From a virus, in the IMG/VR virus record IMGVR_UViG_3300023180_000512, positions 1-20,460 of that record: DNA of 20,460 nt. The stretch is one strand, 5' to 3'. The notes beneath the pieces are model-generated. The model saw only the letters and a list, made by a program, of their open reading frames with translations, was not told the DNA's origin and did not search any database. Shown here piece by piece: positions 2,060 to 20,111 of this stretch. The translations under genes and the position numbers were made by a program. The first letter of the stretch is position 1. Each line of letters starts with the position of its first letter.

Positions 2060-2301
2060 CACACACCCCCCGGAGGCTCAGGAAAGTTTGCTTCAGGGCC
2101 GGGAGTCCATGTCGCAGGGAAATCACGGAGAGCCTGCCGATAGGTTGCCCACTCGTCACGCCTACCCGTCGGGTCGTCATGAGCCTGTGTCCAATCCGAC
2201 TGCGCCAACAAACGATCACGGTGCAGACGCATCTGTGAAATCCAATGCTCTACGGGCGCGCCATCAGCGGTGAGATACGGGGTGATGTTTAGTCTCATCA
2301 T
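2059..2301 (-). CDS. Phage tail assembly chaperone-like protein
   Basis: An 80-residue protein starting MMRLNITPYL. Its middle and end carry the pattern R-D-R-L-L-A-x-S-D-W-T-Q...E-W-A-T-Y-R-Q-A-L-R-D-F-P, followed by a Pro-rich tail (NFPEPPGGV). That pattern is typical of the phage tail assembly chaperone family (Pfam Phage_tail_APC), which accompanies tail fibre genes. I chose the start at 2301 because the ATG overlaps the upstream fibre stop as ATGA. The longer reading from 2349 would use codons inside the fibre gene. Lying between two fibre genes, it probably assists folding or attachment of one or both. Confidence 0.75.
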   Translation of the reverse strand: MMRLNITPYLTADGAPVEHWISQMRLHRDRLLAQSDWTQAHDDPTGRRDEWATYRQALRDFPATWTPGPEANFPEPPGGV

Positions 2302-3176
2302 GCTGCCTCGTAGTAATGGTTCCAGTAGAAAGCGTCGCCGGTCGCCCATGTGAAGGGAACATTGGAGGCAACATCAGCGTTGAACGCATATGTGCCACCC
2401 GCTGCATGAGTAACGAGCCTCATCGTGCTCCCACCCAGATTGATCGCGGTTCCCCAAGTGATGGTTGAGCCGTCGTAAAACGAACACGGAGAGTTGGTTG
2501 TGAGAATTCCTCCAGTTGCGGCGATTGGCAGCGACACATCTAGCGGCCCTGTCATAGAGAAACCACTATGTGTAATGACATAACCCCAATAATGCACGAA
2601 CTTTCCGACTCGGGCATATTTTGCGACGACAGTTGACGTTCCTTTGGTGAAACCTCCAAACGTGACCGACGAGGAATAGTCGGTGTATGTCCCGATTGCA
2701 GCACCGCCGATGCGTAGGTCGCCGGTGGCGTTGATGTCACCGTTGACATCCAACGTGTACGACGGCGTAGTGTCATTGATACCGACATTGCCAGACGAGT
2801 CAACCGTCACTCTAGTACTGCCACCAGCAATGATTCGCGCCTCGTTGCCAACAGCACCGATAGCCACATAACCCTCGCCTGTGGTTGCTGAGTCCTGAAT
2901 GTCAATGTATGAACCAGACACCGATGATTCAGCACGGATTGGTCGGTTATCCGAACCAGTTACATGCAGAGGGTGGGCAGGTGTCGCTGTGCCGATGCCG
3001 ACCCGCTCGTTCGCGTCGTCAATATGCAGAGGCGCACCATCTAACAGGGCCGTCTCAATCGCCTCCACAGCATCATTGATATCGGCGTGCTGCTGGTCAT
3101 GCGGAGGATTATCCAACGTGTCCCCCGACGTAGGATTCGTGAACGCATCCAACGAACCAGGAAAATTAGTAGCCAT
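2298..3176 (-). CDS. Tail fibre paralogue with GIGTxxP beta-repeats
   Basis: A 292-residue fibre. Residues 1-45 are the shared anchor (MATNFPGSLDAFTNP...QQHADINDAVEAIETALL). Next come repeats of the V-G-I-G-T-A-T-P-A-H-P-L-H-V and N-V-G-I-N-D-T-T-P-S-Y-T-L-D-V-N-G-D-I type, known from trimeric phage fibre shafts. Beyond residue ~165 lies a beta-rich tip domain ending FYWNHYYEAA. The same Y-E-A-A ending closes the protein at 3339-3905, so the two tips are probably related. The start overlaps the zinc-ribbon gene stop (TGATG). Likely a receptor-binding fibre; ligand unknown. Confidence 0.82.
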   Translation of the reverse strand: MATNFPGSLDAFTNPTSGDTLDNPPHDQQHADINDAVEAIETALLDGAPLHIDDANERVGIGTATPAHPLHVTGSDNRPIRAESSVSGSYIDIQDSATTGEGYVAIGAVGNEARIIAGGSTRVTVDSSGNVGINDTTPSYTLDVNGDINATGDLRIGGAAIGTYTDYSSSVTFGGFTKGTSTVVAKYARVGKFVHYWGYVITHSGFSMTGPLDVSLPIAATGGILTTNSPCSFYDGSTITWGTAINLGGSTMRLVTHAAGGTYAFNADVASNVPFTWATGDAFYWNHYYEAA

Positions 3177-3338: not shown

Positions 3339-3905
3339 TCATGCCGCCTCGTAGGTGAAGGTCATAACGACTTCATCATTAGTAGCGAATGTAAATGGGC
3401 TTGTCGCACCGACGGCATTGCTTGATGTGTAAGCCATAATTTTATCGGTCGCGCCGCCATAAAACGAGGCTTGGCCTATGTATACGGTGGCAGGACTTGC
3501 GTCGTACAAACGAGCGACTCCTTGGGACATGAAACCGTAAAGACCTGCCCGTGCTGTAATACCTGATGGCAGCGACCAATAATAGATGCCTGTTCCGTTG
3601 GTGGCGGTCGACCCGCGTATGAACAAAATTTGCACCCATACAAGTTTGTTCATTTTGATGTAGCGGCCACTAAGCGTTGAGTTTCCTAACGTCGGAGCGG
3701 TTCCACTACTTGTCCAAGTCGGCGTGTATGTCGTCGAGGTGTCACCGATAGTGCCCGCACCCACACCCAACTTCGCCTGCACCGCTTCCATCGCATCATT
3801 CAAATTCGCGTGCTGATCCGCATGAGGCACCGACACAGAATCCAACGCATCAGAAGCAGACGGATTCGTAAACGAATCCAACGAAGAAGGGAAATTAGTC
3901 GCCAT
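3339..3905 (-). CDS. Tail fibre paralogue with MATNFP anchor
   Basis: A 188-residue protein. Residues 1-48 are the shared anchor (MATNFPSSLDSFTNP...DQHANLNDAMEAVQAKLGV). A beta-rich region follows, containing T-Y-T-P-T-W-T and S-G-R-Y-I-K-M-N-K-L-V-W-V-Q, typical of phage fibre heads. The protein ends MTFTYEAA, like its neighbour at 2298-3176. The reading frame stays open upstream to 3989, but the anchor Met at 3905 is the right start: it overlaps the previous stop (TGATG) and matches its two paralogues. It probably binds the baseplate or tail hub through the anchor and a host surface through the tip. Confidence 0.82.
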   Translation of the reverse strand: MATNFPSSLDSFTNPSASDALDSVSVPHADQHANLNDAMEAVQAKLGVGAGTIGDTSTTYTPTWTSSGTAPTLGNSTLSGRYIKMNKLVWVQILFIRGSTATNGTGIYYWSLPSGITARAGLYGFMSQGVARLYDASPATVYIGQASFYGGATDKIMAYTSSNAVGATSPFTFATNDEVVMTFTYEAA

Positions 3906-4267
3906 CAGTCCAGAGTCAAAGTCAACGAAGTGATCTGGAACGTGTCCCCCGCAACCACCGCAGCCGACGACGCCAACGCCCCCGACCACAACGCATTACC
4001 AGAAGACAACGCATCCCACAACGACCAATGCGTATACGTCTCAGTCGCAGCAACACTCGTCCACTCAACAGTCCCAGACGACGCCATCGACCCGCCAGAC
4101 GCAGCAGAAAACGACACAGCCTTCCGCGCCGTCTCCGTCGCAGCGTTAGCCGTACCATCCTCACCAGGATCACCAGTATGCAACTGCAAATAAGTGCCAG
4201 CAGACGCATACGACGTGCCAGATGTGGCATCCAGCAACTTGTTTTCCAAATAGTTTGAAATGCTCAT
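3905..4267 (-). CDS. Small tail fibre family protein (Gp80-like)
   Basis: A 120-residue protein starting MSISNYLENKLLDATSGTS. It has the line Y-L-Q-L-H-T-G-D-P-G-E-D-G, then A-R-K-A-V-S-F-S-A-A-S-G-G, T-H-W-S-L-W-D-A and a C-terminal F-Q-I-T-S-L-T-L-T-L-D. This pattern is a widespread small phage protein annotated as tail fibre protein (Gp80-like). A GGAG lies eight to nine bases before the ATG at 4267; a TTG one codon upstream is possible. It is the first gene after the terminator and promoter at 4302-4359 and leads the tail operon. Its codons favour T and G endings (TTG, GGT, GCG, ACG) much more than the portal or capsid genes, hinting at a separate origin. Confidence 0.85.
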   Translation of the reverse strand: MSISNYLENKLLDATSGTSYASAGTYLQLHTGDPGEDGTANAATETARKAVSFSAASGGSMASSGTVEWTSVAATETYTHWSLWDALSSGNALWSGALASSAAVVAGDTFQITSLTLTLD

Positions 4268-9027: not shown

Positions 9028-9785
9028 CAGATTCTGCTCCTAAGACTGCCGGCCAACTGGTCAAAGAAACCAAGGAAACGGTAAGCGTTCGCCTGTGACG
9101 GATCGACACGTTCCGCGAACGTCTGCGCTGCCGTGCCAACACTCGGTGCGGAAGTGACCACACCAGAACCTTCCATCGCCTGCTGGTATGCGACTTCTTG
9201 CTGCTGATACGACTGGACAAACTGGTTGAGTTCGTCGGCGGTGAATTTGCGTCCCAGCACACGCCGAGCTGATTCGTCCGCGACCGCACGGATATCGTCC
9301 GGTGACGTAACCCGATAACGGGGCGCGTACACCTTTTCTTCCTGCAACGGCGTCATCGATTCCAGTTTCGTCAACGCGGTTTCCCAGTCACGACCGATGT
9401 TGTTGCCGAGTTCCATGAGGAACCCGAGAGCGTTGATGTATTGGGTGGGGGTGTTGACCGAAATGCCGCGTGCATCCATACGGTCTTGGATGGTGGCGCG
9501 TTGCTGCTCACTCATTCCGAAAAACGTCTTCGTCGGGTCGTTGTTCAAGTTGTAGTAGTACGGCTGGTTGCCGGGGCCGATCACAAGTTGGCCGTTGCGG
9601 TCAACAATGCCTGGGCCGGAGTACGACGCGTTGTACACACCGTTGACGTATGCGGGACGCGGATCGGGGTTGTACGGATCTTCTTGGATGTACGCGGACG
9701 GGACTGACGGCGGCGCAAGAATGTCTTCTTCTGGCTGCTCGCCGTCGGTTTGGATTACTGGGATGTTGGTGTCGTCGTTACTCAT
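9027..9785 (-). CDS. Virion-associated protein of unknown function
   Basis: A 252-residue protein. The first ~100 residues are Pro/Tyr/Asn-rich and probably extended (AYIQEDPYNPDPRPAYVNGVY, YYYNLNNDPTKTFFGMS). The rest is helical, with R-Y-R-V-T-S-P-D-D-I-R-A-V-A-D-E-S-A-R-R-V-L-G-R-K-F-T-A-D-E-L, a pattern I have seen in unnamed phage structural genes next to large internal proteins. Its ATG overlaps the stop of the 1682-residue gene as ATGA, and its stop overlaps the next start as TGATG, so the three are probably translated together. No catalytic motif is visible. It may be a partner in an internal or ejection complex. Confidence 0.65.
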   Translation of the reverse strand: MSNDDTNIPVIQTDGEQPEEDILAPPSVPSAYIQEDPYNPDPRPAYVNGVYNASYSGPGIVDRNGQLVIGPGNQPYYYNLNNDPTKTFFGMSEQQRATIQDRMDARGISVNTPTQYINALGFLMELGNNIGRDWETALTKLESMTPLQEEKVYAPRYRVTSPDDIRAVADESARRVLGRKFTADELNQFVQSYQQQEVAYQQAMEGSGVVTSAPSVGTAAQTFAERVDPSQANAYRFLGFFDQLAGSLRSRI

Positions 9786-12700
9786 TGCAGTACATCCACT
9801 TCGTCGTAGAACACTCGCGTATAGACGCGCTGGAACTCTGGGTATTTCCCGGCGAGTTGATCGCCGTATTGTCTAAGAACTTGTCGGAGGTCTGCATTTG
9901 CTTTACGTCCGAGCAAGCCTTGTGTCTCTACACCATTATTACGCAGAATTGCTTCCGCGAGGACTTGTTCACGGTAGTTGATGTATAGGCGGGCGGGTTC
10001 TGCGACTTCGTTGCCGTCAAGCAGAGGGCTTCGGGCTGCGTTGATGACTTGGTCAAGGATTTGTGCGCGTTCCCGAATGTTGATCGGGGCGAACTCGAAA
10101 CCAGGAAGGTTGCGTTCCAGCATGTCGCGGTACAAGCCGAGTTCGATTTCTGCTGCATCGGACAGGTTTTGGGGCAGGTTGCGGACGGCGTCCATGTAAA
10201 GGGCTTTGCCGACGACTGCTTCTGCATCTTGCCGGATTTCTGCTGGGTCGGTGATCTTCTCGCGTGTCCCGCTCTCGATTTGGCGCAGATACGTTTGCAG
10301 GTCGAACTCGGTGCCGATTGGAGCGAAGTACCCGTACACGTCTTTGTGCGCCCGCATGATGTCACCGTTGCGTCGTTCCCAGTCGCCGAACTGTGCAGAA
10401 GCATCAAGACCTTGGGTTTTAGTGCGGGTTTTACCGACGGTGTACATCATCATGTCAGGGCCGAACGTCCGCAGGAAGTCAACTACCGCGTTTTCGTAGT
10501 CGGATTCCTGCATGGCGCGGAACGTCGCAGAAAGCAGCGCGTTCGGGATGTAATCACCCTCGATGTCGTACTGCTTATCTTCAACGGTGATCGTTCCATC
10601 GAATTCGGTGGGGATGTTGAACTGGATGCTGCCTCGCACAGGGCCAAGGTATTGGGCGAAACCACGGTATGCGAGCAGGTACGCAGCGACTGAGTCGGCG
10701 TCAGCGTCGAGGCGTGCCATGTCTTCTTCGTTGGTGTTGTCGTAATCACCGGACGTGAACAAGGCGCGGTATGCGTCCATTTTCAGGTCGAGGTACAAAC
10801 GGTCGTTGTCAGGGTCAGCTGAGAACGCTTCGTACACTTTCTCCAACCAGGCAGGGGCGATGGTGCCGATGCCGAGGTCTTCCGTACCGAACGGCGAAAC
10901 AAGTTCCATCAACTGGTCGTATTGAGGTTTGTTGCCCAACCATTCTTTGGCGGGGATCTGCACAGCAGGCCCGAACCCTGGCAGCACGTTGAACGACATT
11001 GACAGCGACCGGACAGGAGCAACAAGTTCCGGTTTGATATCACCAAGGTTCTCGGAGATGCGTTCGCGTGCCAGCAAACCGGCACCGCCGACTATCGCTG
11101 CGCCAGCCAACGCGCCTCGTACCGGGCTGGCACGACCCAAGAATGTTTCGCCGAGAACCGCGCCGGCACCTGCGCCGACAAACGGGATCATCCAATCGGA
11201 GAACGGATAGTTGAACACAAGTTCGCCGGTCACAGGATCTGGGTACACGAAACCTTTGCCGTCACCGTCGGGATCCATGTCGCGGAACCCTTGAGCTGAC
11301 ACACCCATGTTCTTGATGCGGTTCGGTTTCAACAGAACCTGCTTGTAGTACAACTTTGTCATTTCAGCCCATGCGGGGCCGAACGGTACGGCGATGCGGA
11401 GGATGTCCGCGAAGTTGTTTTTGTCGGCAGCATTGAAGAACACACTCTTGGTTTCTTCTAGGGCGAACGCTTTTGCTGCGATGTCAAGTTGGTCGTTGTC
11501 GAGGGCGTCGTCAAAAATGGTGTTGTCTTCGGCACGGGCTTTGATTTTTTCCCACAGTTCACGCGACCCGACGTACCTTGCGGCATATTCATCGTCAAAG
11601 ATTTTTTCCGCTTTGGCAAGCTCATCGTTGGCTTCGTCAACTAGGCGTTTGTACTCGGCATCGTCAATTTCGACACCGTTCCAGAAACGCTTACCTTCCT
11701 TGTTTTTCTTCGCTGCTTTCAACGCGTAGACACGGCGTTCTGCAAGATCAACAGTTCCTTGACGGACATTGGCGATGATGTCGCGTGCGGTGCCCTGTTT
11801 GATGCCCCACGCGCCCTTATCGCCGATCAGATCGTTGATACGCAGGTAGTAATACTTGCGGAACACAGGGGAACGGTTGAGGAACGCTTCTTTCTTGCCG
11901 AACACGTTTCCAAAAAAATGGTCAATCGTTTTGCGCCATGCATCTCCAACAACTGTTCCGGTTTTCCCGAATCGCACTTGGTCAACAGGGACAGGTGCTT
12001 TGACCAGATTTGGTAGGACAGCGTCGGGGTCGTTGACGAGCCGGCCGATCTCGGCAAGCATTTCGTCGGAATAGTCGAACGAGTCCACATCTAGCGCGCC
12101 GATGCCGGTGCTGTCCAAGAACCCTGGCTTGACTTCGCCGGCCTCATCCAAGAATGTTCCATTACGAACCGAATTAGCGATCATCGACATGAGCGCGTTG
12201 TTGCCGCCAGTCACCTGCTCCAGACGGGTGACGATCACGTCGTTGAGGTACACCGACAGGTTTTCCAGATCGACGTTGCCTGCTTCATCTACAAAGTTGA
12301 TGCTGCCTCGTACCACTTCGTCTGTGTCTTGGCGACGTATGCGTTTGTTTTGCCACAGCGAGTTGATGCGTTTCAGTTCTTCTTTGCCTTGACCGGGGCG
12401 GGTGCCGTAACGAAACACGAAATCGGAGTCGGTGGCGGCGTCTCCGGTCAGCCAGCGGCGCATCGCGTCAACGGCTTCTTCGCGGCTGCCACCCATTTCC
12501 ATGATGTCTGCTGCGATGCGTCCAAGCGGGGTGTTCGCCATCAACCGAAGTTCGTTAGCGACACCACGCACATAATCCATGTTTTGTGCTGCTTCGCGTG
12601 GGCGGGCGATCAGACGGTAATGGCCGCTGCGGAACCCTGCTTTTTCAACGTCGGCAATGTCAACGGCTTCACGGGGTTTCGCGTTTGTCGCTTCGATGAA

Positions 12701-14830
12701 GTCGAGGTTGGTTCGGCGTCCTGCGAAAGCAGCGTTTTCTGCGAATCCTGCACCGTTGACATCACCAGCGAATGTGCGACCGGACACGGCACGCATCCAT
12801 TGCAGCGGGTGCAACGGGCCGGACTTGATACCAGGTGTTGCCATTGACCGGATGACGGACTCGATCATGTTGCGGAACATGTACCCGCCGGTCATCAGCG
12901 TTGCGGGACGCCAAATGTCTTGCTGGATTTTGTCCATCAACGCTGTCAACAAGTACGGGTCGCCCCACTTCTCAGGGTCTTTCATGCGTCGTTGCCAAAG
13001 AAATTCGTAGCGTGCGCTGGCGCGACGGACAGCACGGGCGTCAGGCATGTAACCAGCGAATTTACGCATCTCTGACGGGAGGTGTGCTGTTGCAGATATC
13101 AGATCGCCTTTAGCGTCGATAATGACTGCGCCGTCTTCGGTGAAGTTCAAACCTTTGATGACAGCGGTGTTGCCGGATTCGTCAATGGTGCCGAACAGGT
13201 CGTATTCGCCGACATCGCTACGAAACTTGCCGAACACGTCACGATGGAACTTTTGTTGCGCTGCCAGAGCAGCCGTGTCCTCTGCTGTCGCTGTGCCGTC
13301 TTGAATACGTTTGCGTGCCCGACGACCAACTCGTTTCAAACTGAGTTCGCGGATCACAGCGTCGTCTAACGCTTTCATTGCGTCTTGGATGTTGCCGTCA
13401 ACGCCGCGTGACAGCAAAGCGCGGGTCATTGTGCGAAGGATCTGGTCGCGTTCTGCGGTGCCGACACGCAACGTGCGGAGATAGTTGCTGGCGTTCTCGA
13501 TGGTTTGTGTTAGGTCACGGATGTCGTCCGAAACGACAACCATTTCGCGGCCTGCGACAGGTGCAAAGTTTCGTGCCCACCACGACTGGTAGCCCTGTTT
13601 GATTCGGGAAGGCAAGATTTTGCCGGCGATGCTGCGAGAGTCTTGGATGCCGAGGCGTGCGCGGCTGCGGTCGGCCATACGTCCAATACGGATGTCGTCG
13701 GTGCGTGCTAGACCTTCTAGGCCGAGGCGGTCTTTCAGCAAGTCGTCAACTTTGTCAACGGTGTCGGCTTCGACAACACGCAGCCAGAAGTCGGCGTCTG
13801 CGTTGCGGAACATGTCTTTGGCTTCTTCGATGCTGTTGACGTTGACGAGGCGTTCTTTGACAGCCTCGCCTTGGCGTGAAGTCAACCAACGGCCAACAGA
13901 AGAACGATCAATGTGCGGACGGCTGGAATAAGTGACGCCAGCTAGACGGGCACGTCGAGAACCCGGAATTGCGACTATGCCACGACCGGCACGCAACACA
14001 CGTTCCGTCGCGGCAGCAGCCTCATCAGCTTTGCCGACCGTACGGCCAACACCGCGAGCAGTTTTCGTTACCGCTTTAGAACCGGGGATTGACGGGACAG
14101 CGATAGCAGCGGCAGCATCAAGTAGCCCAGATGTGATGTTGTACGCCTGCGAATCTGGGTTGAAGAAGTTGTTTGCGAACCCGCGCCCTAACGTCCATGC
14201 TTCACCGTTGATCGTGCCACGGTATGCGCGGGCGTTTTCCTCTTGGAACTCTTTCGCTGCTTCACCGATGAAATATCCGTTGCCGGACTCTGCGCCAGAC
14301 AACAACGCACCCAGATCGGTTGAAGCGAACAAACCATCGAACACACCTTTAGTTGGTGCTTCGTAGTCGCCATACCCGAAACCATCTTGGCCGGGGATCT
14401 GGCTCACACCCGCTTGCAACCCTTGATATTGGCGAGACGCCAAGTTCGTCAACGTCTGAGGCACAAACTCTAAACCGGCAAGACCCCACTTGGTGCCGGT
14501 CTTCAACGCTTCAAAACCTGTTTCGGTGATCTTGTCCCACCAGTTCTTAGGTTCTGGTTGACGTTCGATCGCGGTTTGCCCCATGAACTGGACGCTGTCC
14601 ACAGCCATCTGGCTTGCGTCCTCCAACGACATGGTGCCCTGCTGCACCTCCATCGCCAACGGATAAATCAGTTCTCCTGGTGCATTCGGGGCGAACGCGA
14701 CAATGTCATCAATGATCTGAGCTTGCTGTTCGTTCGCTTCGCGGACATACCGCAAAACGTCGTATTCTTCTTCAACGAGTTCGCGACGTAACTGCTGCTC
14801 GTCGTCGTACAGCGAGTCCTCAACACCCAT
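9782..14830 (-). CDS. Very large virion protein, probable internal or ejection protein
   Basis: A 1682-residue protein, about a quarter of the window. The N-terminus is acidic and helical (residues 1-100). Residues 230-250 are Ala-rich and hydrophobic. Residues 635-680 carry I-W-R-P-A-T-L-M-T-G-G-Y-M-F-R-N-M-I-E-S, seen in equivalents from related phages. Residues 1184-1194 (DMDPDGDGKGF) look like a calcium-binding loop. Residues 1212-1257 hold two Gly/Ala-rich hydrophobic stretches (WMIPFVGAGAGAVLGETF and ALAGAAIVGGAGLLA) that could enter a membrane. No lysozyme, protease or polymerase motif was found. Its size, place after portal and paired hydrophobic segments recall the huge internal proteins of podoviruses (T7 gp16-like in role, not in sequence). 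Role inferred. Confidence 0.75.
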   Translation of the reverse strand: MGVEDSLYDDEQQLRRELVEEEYDVLRYVREANEQQAQIIDDIVAFAPNAPGELIYPLAMEVQQGTMSLEDASQMAVDSVQFMGQTAIERQPEPKNWWDKITETGFEALKTGTKWGLAGLEFVPQTLTNLASRQYQGLQAGVSQIPGQDGFGYGDYEAPTKGVFDGLFASTDLGALLSGAESGNGYFIGEAAKEFQEENARAYRGTINGEAWTLGRGFANNFFNPDSQAYNITSGLLDAAAAIAVPSIPGSKAVTKTARGVGRTVGKADEAAAATERVLRAGRGIVAIPGSRRARLAGVTYSSRPHIDRSSVGRWLTSRQGEAVKERLVNVNSIEEAKDMFRNADADFWLRVVEADTVDKVDDLLKDRLGLEGLARTDDIRIGRMADRSRARLGIQDSRSIAGKILPSRIKQGYQSWWARNFAPVAGREMVVVSDDIRDLTQTIENASNYLRTLRVGTAERDQILRTMTRALLSRGVDGNIQDAMKALDDAVIRELSLKRVGRRARKRIQDGTATAEDTAALAAQQKFHRDVFGKFRSDVGEYDLFGTIDESGNTAVIKGLNFTEDGAVIIDAKGDLISATAHLPSEMRKFAGYMPDARAVRRASARYEFLWQRRMKDPEKWGDPYLLTALMDKIQQDIWRPATLMTGGYMFRNMIESVIRSMATPGIKSGPLHPLQWMRAVSGRTFAGDVNGAGFAENAAFAGRRTNLDFIEATNAKPREAVDIADVEKAGFRSGHYRLIARPREAAQNMDYVRGVANELRLMANTPLGRIAADIMEMGGSREEAVDAMRRWLTGDAATDSDFVFRYGTRPGQGKEELKRINSLWQNKRIRRQDTDEVVRGSINFVDEAGNVDLENLSVYLNDVIVTRLEQVTGGNNALMSMIANSVRNGTFLDEAGEVKPGFLDSTGIGALDVDSFDYSDEMLAEIGRLVNDPDAVLPNLVKAPVPVDQVRFGKTGTVVGDAWRKTIDHFFGNVFGKKEAFLNRSPVFRKYYYLRINDLIGDKGAWGIKQGTARDIIANVRQGTVDLAERRVYALKAAKKNKEGKRFWNGVEIDDAEYKRLVDEANDELAKAEKIFDDEYAARYVGSRELWEKIKARAEDNTIFDDALDNDQLDIAAKAFALEETKSVFFNAADKNNFADILRIAVPFGPAWAEMTKLYYKQVLLKPNRIKNMGVSAQGFRDMDPDGDGKGFVYPDPVTGELVFNYPFSDWMIPFVGAGAGAVLGETFLGRASPVRGALAGAAIVGGAGLLARERISENLGDIKPELVAPVRSLSMSFNVLPGFGPAVQIPAKEWLGNKPQYDQLMELVSPFGTEDLGIGTIAPAWLEKVYEAFSADPDNDRLYLDLKMDAYRALFTSGDYDNTNEEDMARLDADADSVAAYLLAYRGFAQYLGPVRGSIQFNIPTEFDGTITVEDKQYDIEGDYIPNALLSATFRAMQESDYENAVVDFLRTFGPDMMMYTVGKTRTKTQGLDASAQFGDWERRNGDIMRAHKDVYGYFAPIGTEFDLQTYLRQIESGTREKITDPAEIRQDAEAVVGKALYMDAVRNLPQNLSDAAEIELGLYRDMLERNLPGFEFAPINIRERAQILDQVINAARSPLLDGNEVAEPARLYINYREQVLAEAILRNNGVETQGLLGRKANADLRQVLRQYGDQLAGKYPEFQRVYTRVFYDEVDVLQ

Positions 14831-19340: not shown

Positions 19341-20111
19341 ATGTCACAGGCATCAGCGACCGAGTATTTCGCGATCATCCCCGAGTCCGTCCTGTACGCG
19401 GACATCAGCTCTAACGCAGTTCGCGTCTACGGGGTGCTGCGACGGCACGCCGACAAAGACGACAACACCTGTCACCCTGGCCGGTCACGGATCGCCGCGC
19501 TAGCAAAGATCAGCACAAGCGCAGTTGATCGAGCAGTCCAACAACTCGTTGAAGCAGGGTTCGTCACAGTCCATCATCGGCGCGACCCAGAGAACCCGAA
19601 ACGGCACCTATCAAGCAGGTACGTTATCCACAGCACCCCTCCCGCTGGTGACTATACCCCTCCCGCTGGTGACGATACCCCCCTCCCGCTGGTGAGTACA
19701 CCCCCTCCCGCTGGTGACGAAGTAACCATAGTCAAAGAACCAGAGCCAATAAACCAGACACCGTTCGACACCATCTGGCAAATCTACCCACGGAAAATCG
19801 CCCGCAAAAAATGCGAACAATGGTGGCACAAACATGCCACAAACATGGCATCCCAAATCCTCGACGCAGCCACCACCGCCACCAAACAATGGCGACAAGA
19901 CAACACCGAACCCAGATACATCCCGCACCCATACACCTGGCTAAACCAAGAACGCTGGAAAGATCACACCCCCCTCCCTGCACCAGAAAAAGAAGTGCGA
20001 CCCTACGACACCCAACCCACCCAATGCGACACCTGTGACGGAACCCGCTACATCAGCACCGAAGACGAACACGGACGCAGCTGGGCCGCACCATGCCCCC
20101 AATGCAACTGA
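19341..20111 (+). CDS. Replication initiator-like protein (lambda O type layout)
   Basis: A 256-residue protein and the only clear rightward gene. Residues 1-95 form a winged helix (SNAVRVYGVLRRHAD, then RSRIAALAKISTSAVDRAVQQLVEAGFV) of the HTH_36 kind found in phage replication initiators. Residues 98-130 are low-complexity TPPAGD repeats created by the DNA repeats described separately. Residues ~141-208 carry F-D-T-I-W-Q-I-Y-P-R-K...Y-I-P-H-P-Y-T-W-L-N-Q-E-R-W, the C-terminal domain common in phage replication proteins. C229, C232, C252 and C255 form a final zinc-knuckle. GGAAGG lies eight bases before the ATG. It probably binds the origin and recruits the helicase loader. Codons end mostly in C or A. 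Confidence 0.85.
   Translation: MSQASATEYFAIIPESVLYADISSNAVRVYGVLRRHADKDDNTCHPGRSRIAALAKISTSAVDRAVQQLVEAGFVTVHHRRDPENPKRHLSSRYVIHSTPPAGDYTPPAGDDTPLPLVSTPPPAGDEVTIVKEPEPINQTPFDTIWQIYPRKIARKKCEQWWHKHATNMASQILDAATTATKQWRQDNTEPRYIPHPYTWLNQERWKDHTPLPAPEKEVRPYDTQPTQCDTCDGTRYISTEDEHGRSWAAPCPQCN
19636..19718 (+). repeat. Four iteron-like direct repeats inside the initiator gene; candidate replication origin
   Basis: Four copies of CCCCTCCCGCTGGTGA start at 19636, 19657, 19680 and 19702, a spacing of 21, 23 and 22 bases, close to two helical turns. Copies 1, 2 and 4 continue with C and copy 3 with G. Copies 1, 2 and 4 are read in one frame (P-P-A-G-D); copy 3 is shifted and encodes P-L-P-L-V-S, with the frame restored in copy 4. 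So the DNA, not the peptide, is what is conserved. The sequence that follows is richer in A and T. Confidence 0.8.

Follow-up and report, generated by a model that had tools for sequence, protein, structure and literature searches.

In phage lambda, the iterons are situated in the middle of the initiator gene O together with an A+T-rich tract (PMC7466680); the annotated copies (at 39034, 39054, 39078, and 39101) fall into all three reading frames of the gene. Lambda, P22, and L carry different iterons within their initiator genes (PMC8022706); oriL of SPP1 comprises direct repeats within gene 38, bound by gp38, along with an A+T-rich unwinding element (PMC6316719). For the mycobacteriophage RepA, the origin was suggested to lie upstream of or within repA, the repeats themselves not being found (PMC7157519). 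Since different iterons in distantly related initiator genes have already been published for lambda, P22, L, and SPP1, one more case of this kind is of limited surprise; the new elements are a clean pair of putative cassettes and the wide occurrence of frame-blind arrays in PHROG 270-like initiators.

The array described below, harbored by the initiator gene of a phage from an uncultured group, belongs with the lambda O, P22 gp18, and SPP1 gp38 kind of intragenic origin. The likeness to lambda O and ori-lambda embraces the N-terminal DNA-binding half, the mid-gene location of the iterons, their number (four), and the A+T-rich tract beside them, as well as the steps of about two helical turns, which are not tied to the reading frame (21/23/22 bp here and 20/24/23 bp in lambda). 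At the same time, the iteron sequence is unrelated to that of lambda, a DnaA box adjoins the array, no lambda P-like loader was recognised next door, and the dyad symmetry, clear in lambda, is weak here (at best 4/7 pairs; lambda iteron 1, counted in the same way, has 6/8). Because hyphenated dyad symmetry was not found, the array is classed as an intragenic iteron origin and is kept apart from the lambda O family in the strict sense.

The gp18 proteins of P22 and Salmonella phage L are distantly related initiators whose coding regions contain different iterons of their own (PMC8022706), but they belong to another host group, and L features six 11-bp repeats. With SPP1 gp38 and oriL, the locus shares the direct repeats in the initiator gene plus the A+T-rich element; however, SPP1 possesses a second origin, oriR, whereas no second array was found in a related 30-kb contig. 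The closest annotated relatives of the initiator are the PHROG 270 proteins of Arthrobacter phages Bumble and Jamun, Leuconostoc phage LLC-1, and Lactobacillus phage PL-1. These are homologous initiators with intragenic arrays in the same, linker-coding position of the gene and with steps of 22–24 bp (22/24, 22/22/22, 23/22/24, and 23/23, respectively), but their iteron sequences are unrelated and the protein identity is as low as ~22–28%.

The initiator gene and its genomic setting

The window, i.e., the whole stretch of DNA under analysis, is a complete linear IMG/VR record of 20,460 bp, the record itself being a fragment. The features of the locus are collected in Table 1.

Table 1. Features of the initiator gene and of the array inside it (positions in the window)
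Feature	Position	Strand	Remarks
Replication initiator gene	19341-20111	+	256 aa; predicted to comprise a winged helix, a disordered linker, a helical domain, and a C-terminal CxxC...CxxC element
Winged-helix DNA-binding domain (residues about 11-96)	19371-19628	+	AlphaFold2, pLDDT mostly 80-93
Candidate exchangeable specificity cassette	19483-19720	+	Second half of HTH, wing, whole iteron array; divergent segment of L006 and L008 as delimited by maximum likelihood
Putative recognition helix (residues 59-72)	19515-19556	+	Model secondary structure and alignment
Perfect DnaA box TTATCCACA	19624-19632	+	3 nt before iteron 1; no other exact match in the window (0.06 matches expected)
Iteron 1 CCCCTCCCGCTGGTGA	19636-19651	+	Exact 16-bp copy
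Iteron 2 CCCCTCCCGCTGGTGA	19657-19672	+	Step 21; frame as iteron 1
Iteron 3 CCCCTCCCGCTGGTGA	19680-19695	+	Step 23; out of frame with the other three
Iteron 4 CCCCTCCCGCTGGTGA	19702-19717	+	Step 22; frame of iterons 1 and 2 regained
A+T-rich stretch, candidate unwinding element	19719-19770	+	A+T 55.8% vs. 43.2% in the window and 31.3% in the array
Three AACC motifs (19724, 19738, 19752)	19724-19755	+	14-nt steps, each in a different frame; from sequence
C-terminal helical domain (residues about 141-209, FDTIWQIYPRK...PHPYTWLNQERW)	19761-19967	+	Common to other phage initiators and primosomal proteins

In a profile search, residues 7–235 of the initiator matched PHROG 270 (“replication initiation protein”; E=4.8e-32), the match spanning both the DNA-binding and the C-terminal domains; a match to Pfam HTH_36 (E=5.6e-9) was above the cut-off as well. 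In the structure predicted by AlphaFold2 with 40 homologues, the winged helix is made up of helices 24–36, 48–55, and 59–72 and strands 75–81 and 89–96; by sequence and fold matches, it resembles the N-terminal domain of DnaD and MarR-like winged helices. Residues 104–138 are predicted to be disordered (pLDDT <50). The domain order assumed in the first-pass annotation, i.e., an array lying between a DNA-binding N-terminus and a C-terminal part, is thus reproduced by the model, with a winged helix before the array and a second folded domain after it. In structure comparison, the best viral matches of the whole model were phage HTH initiators, with that of Bumble at the top. The C-terminus (20025-20105, plus strand) bears two CxxC pairs (CDTC...CPQC), possibly a zinc ribbon, as a weaker predicted element; its extreme end differs in one of the close relatives (L006).

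Five relatives with 80–100% protein identity to the initiator were found in IMG/VR, and none in bacterial genomes. The related 30-kb contig (L271) carries two adjacent WhiB-family genes (10291-10647 and 10647-10928), which we take to point to actinobacterial hosts; an SSB, an annealing protein, a RecE-like exonuclease, a RusA-like resolvase, and a C5 methylase are encoded near them. In the window, the neighboring minus-strand ORFs 1400-2062, 2298-3176, and 3339-3989 have a common N-terminal motif (MATNFP.SLD..TNP...) and apparently encode paralogous structural proteins; a 1682-aa ORF (9782-14830, minus strand) with no PHROG match separates the portal gene from the head genes.

The iteron array, its spacing, and its flanks

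The four direct repeats reported for the initiator gene in the first-pass annotation, with their steps of 21, 23, and 22 bp, proved to be exact copies. The length of the unit had been given there as 16–17 bp; the former value stands and the latter does not, since the base preceding the unit varies. No further match to the unit was found in the window with up to three mismatches allowed, and 0/100 dinucleotide shuffles of the window yielded four matches. Single 16-mer matches in 13 unrelated viral contigs were disregarded, their number being roughly that expected by chance for a collection of this size. The earlier statement that copy 3 lies in another frame and yields a different peptide, the frame being regained at copy 4, is likewise correct: copies 1, 2, and 4 encode TPPAGD, TPPAGD, and PPPAGD, respectively, and copy 3 encodes TPLPLVS. 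According to the model, the array encodes residues 99–126, i.e., the low-confidence linker between the winged helix (11–96) and the helical domain (141–209). Such a location over a presumably floppy part of the protein would leave the DNA free to follow the binding site and not the protein. The search for a hairpin in the array as single-stranded DNA gave no signal (z = 0.55), none of the known RNA families matched, and the promoter scan revealed no signal above chance.

Intragenic arrays of other initiators were surveyed by scanning twice for the C-terminal motif that they share (at least 247 ORFs); this is a sample and not a census because only the matches listed were taken in and the families were clustered crudely. 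Among these matches, arrays of at least three copies were recognised by a fixed rule in 35 families, 18 of which have all their steps within 19–25 bp. Frame-shifted spacing is not special to the array of the window: lambda and, among the matches listed, 16 of these 18 families also have copies in more than one frame. The steps of 20–25 bp in the same matches (n=54) are most commonly 22 or 23 bp (37 steps), and 42 of them are not multiples of three, compared with 36 expected under frame-blind selection and 0 for a coding repeat. In-frame 15-bp arrays (L108, L178, BrutonGaster) were left out of the supporting evidence. Arrays of this sort, representing either iterons or protein-level repeats, were seen in the linker of L108, L064, L079, and L144, of L178, L206, L207, and L240, and of L151 (BrutonGaster). 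Other arrangements were encountered, too: an eight-copy array with steps switching from 17 to 22 bp in the initiator gene of L174, and two palindromic units (e.g., GTGCCAAATTGGCAC) flanking an A+T-rich stretch inside the initiator gene, with no tandem array, in L045, L047, and L112.

The DnaA box, which the first-pass annotation does not mention, adjoins the iterons as it does in origins of the iteron plasmid type, and its position is kept in all close relatives (5–6 sequences), although it may have arisen by chance or from the coding, the same bases encoding a strand of the wing. As a feature of the whole class the box was rejected, since the arrays of the other 34 families among the matches listed have no such box nearby. 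The participation of DnaA is a suggestion only, because the box was spotted post hoc, codes for the wing, and has no counterpart in the other surveyed families.

The A+T-richness beside the iterons is moderate (56%), and the least stable 50-mer near the array ranks within the top 1% of the window. Among the matches listed, 21 of 23 families have a higher A+T content past the array than over the gene as a whole. AACC repeats at steps of 7, 11, 12, or 14 nt, in several frames, occur just after the array in otherwise unrelated initiators; regular steps are found in the window, L174, L198, L200, L266, L265, L192, L051, and Jamun (L147). As a universal second repeat, AACC was rejected: its enrichment among the matches listed is modest (80 vs. 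54.6 in dinucleotide shuffles), and it is not the top tetramer; the motif is retained as a lead.

Joint variation of the recognition half and the iterons

Selection or copying at the level of the DNA and not of the protein had been proposed in the first-pass annotation, along with the alignment of homologous initiators as a check for a DNA repeat kept while its frame varies; this alignment gave a positive result. Two of the close relatives (L005 and L006) have the unit of the window, CCCCTCCCGCTGGTGA, and three others (L007, L008, and L009; 80–86% amino-acid identity) have another unit, CCCCCCGCGCTGGTGA, which differs by T to C at position 5 (T5C) and C to G at position 7 (C7G). Each of the four copies has both changes; in copy 3, which is out of frame, they give amino-acid changes unlike those of the other copies. 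Copies 2 and 4 of the CCCCCCGCGCTGGTGA type are slightly drifted (positions 13-14 and 16), and copy 3 of L007 differs at position 3. Since the same two positions are changed in every copy, copy 3 included, conservation acts on the DNA; thus, the peptide changes, and the DNA keeps its four repeats and their spacing. Different iterons also occupy this place in many of the more distant initiators, with steps of ~22–23 bp and copies in different frames.

The edges of the block in which the two types diverge were located by a two-breakpoint likelihood scan of L006 vs. L008: 64/238 nt differ inside it and 10/535 outside (the log-likelihood exceeding that of a uniform rate by 55.7). Over the leader and codons 1–45, the pair differs at 3/237 positions, and the C-terminal half is also near-identical. 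The 5' edge lies just ahead of the second helix of the winged helix, and the 3' edge is 3 nt past the last iteron. In the alignment, cassettes A and B are distinguished by T59E, S60R, and A61S at the N-terminus of the putative recognition helix and by an altered wing. L007 and L008 have the block of the second type in common (1/245 positions differ) despite their differing leaders (20/101). These comparisons therefore suggest that the recognition half and the iterons travel together. A second, older case is represented by L029/L086 vs. L036/L039, where the C-terminal parts are 77–79% identical, the N-terminal parts ~50% identical, and the iterons altered.

Judging by these sequences, recombination would be the source of the mosaic pattern. 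The chances appear evenly balanced that the recognition half and the whole array form one transferable cassette of origin specificity, replaced jointly by recombination at edges just outside it, with the consequence that close relatives differ in the origin they use despite their near-identical flanks.

The array as a probable replication origin

We consider it highly probable that the array is the iteron part of a phage replication origin, located inside the initiator gene in a lambda O-like manner and bound by the initiator. The same proposal, made in the first-pass annotation, gains support from the conservation at the DNA level, the profile of the initiator, and its domain order. In the mechanism envisaged, the N-terminal winged helix would bind the four 16-bp direct repeats, which, being approximately two helical turns apart, would place the bound proteins on one face of the DNA. 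The resulting complex may open the A+T-richer stretch to the right of the array, and the C-terminal helical domain, a putative helicase recruiter, would bring in the host replicative helicase, perhaps with the host DnaA at the adjacent box. Binding of the initiator to the iterons is indirectly supported by the joint change of the recognition helix and the iterons across the sequences compared. No P-like helicase loader or DnaB-type helicase was recognised among 18 further gene products of the 30-kb contig, which is possibly incomplete. Cumulative GC skew was calculated for the window and the 30-kb contig; on the contig, the initiator gene appears as a local dip coinciding with its opposite (plus-strand) orientation. 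The skew was not used as an origin marker because the dip follows the orientation of the gene and is not a global minimum, and because the record is a fragment.

The repeats could also be initiator-binding sites that only regulate the initiator gene or the transcription of the phage, with no origin function, since a winged-helix protein that has binding sites close by might just as well be an autoregulator and the present data on the array are those of sequence. Still, neither the promoter, nor the rest of the window, nor the related 30-kb contig was found to contain another copy of the unit, and a purely regulatory site is therefore disfavored. The position, the spacing, and the flanking A+T-richness are those of known origins, and the protein matches replication families over two domains, which makes this explanation unlikely. 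Recent local duplication or slippage, with copies that are not maintained, is suggested by the perfect identity of the copies in the window, and identity alone is no proof of selection. However, the spacers (CTATA, CGATACC, and GTACAC) are unequal in both length and sequence while the units are identical, the diverged cassette retains four copies with concerted changes, and unrelated families keep arrays in the same place and with the same spacing; hence, such an origin of the copies is very improbable. Selection of a TPPAGD linker as a peptide, to which the P-A-G-D-like products of three of the four copies might point, is the least credible explanation, given that copy 3 encodes TPLPLVS, that the peptide varies among the relatives (TPRAGD, TPPALV) while the DNA repeat stays, that the segment is predicted to be disordered, and that 0/20,000 synonymous recodings of the gene reproduced identical copies (the best match of copy 3 to copy 1 being 14/16).

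Overall, the reading of the array as an intragenic origin provides an uncultured phage group with a likely origin of replication, and it represents a case in which selection on a DNA site overriding the reading frame can be recognised from the sequence alone. The two cassette types lend themselves to studying, as a natural experiment, how the specificities of initiators and origins are kept matched. If the joint replacement of the recognition half and the array is true, pairs such as L006/L008 and L029/L036 would let the residue-to-base recognition rules of intragenic origins be read from sequence.
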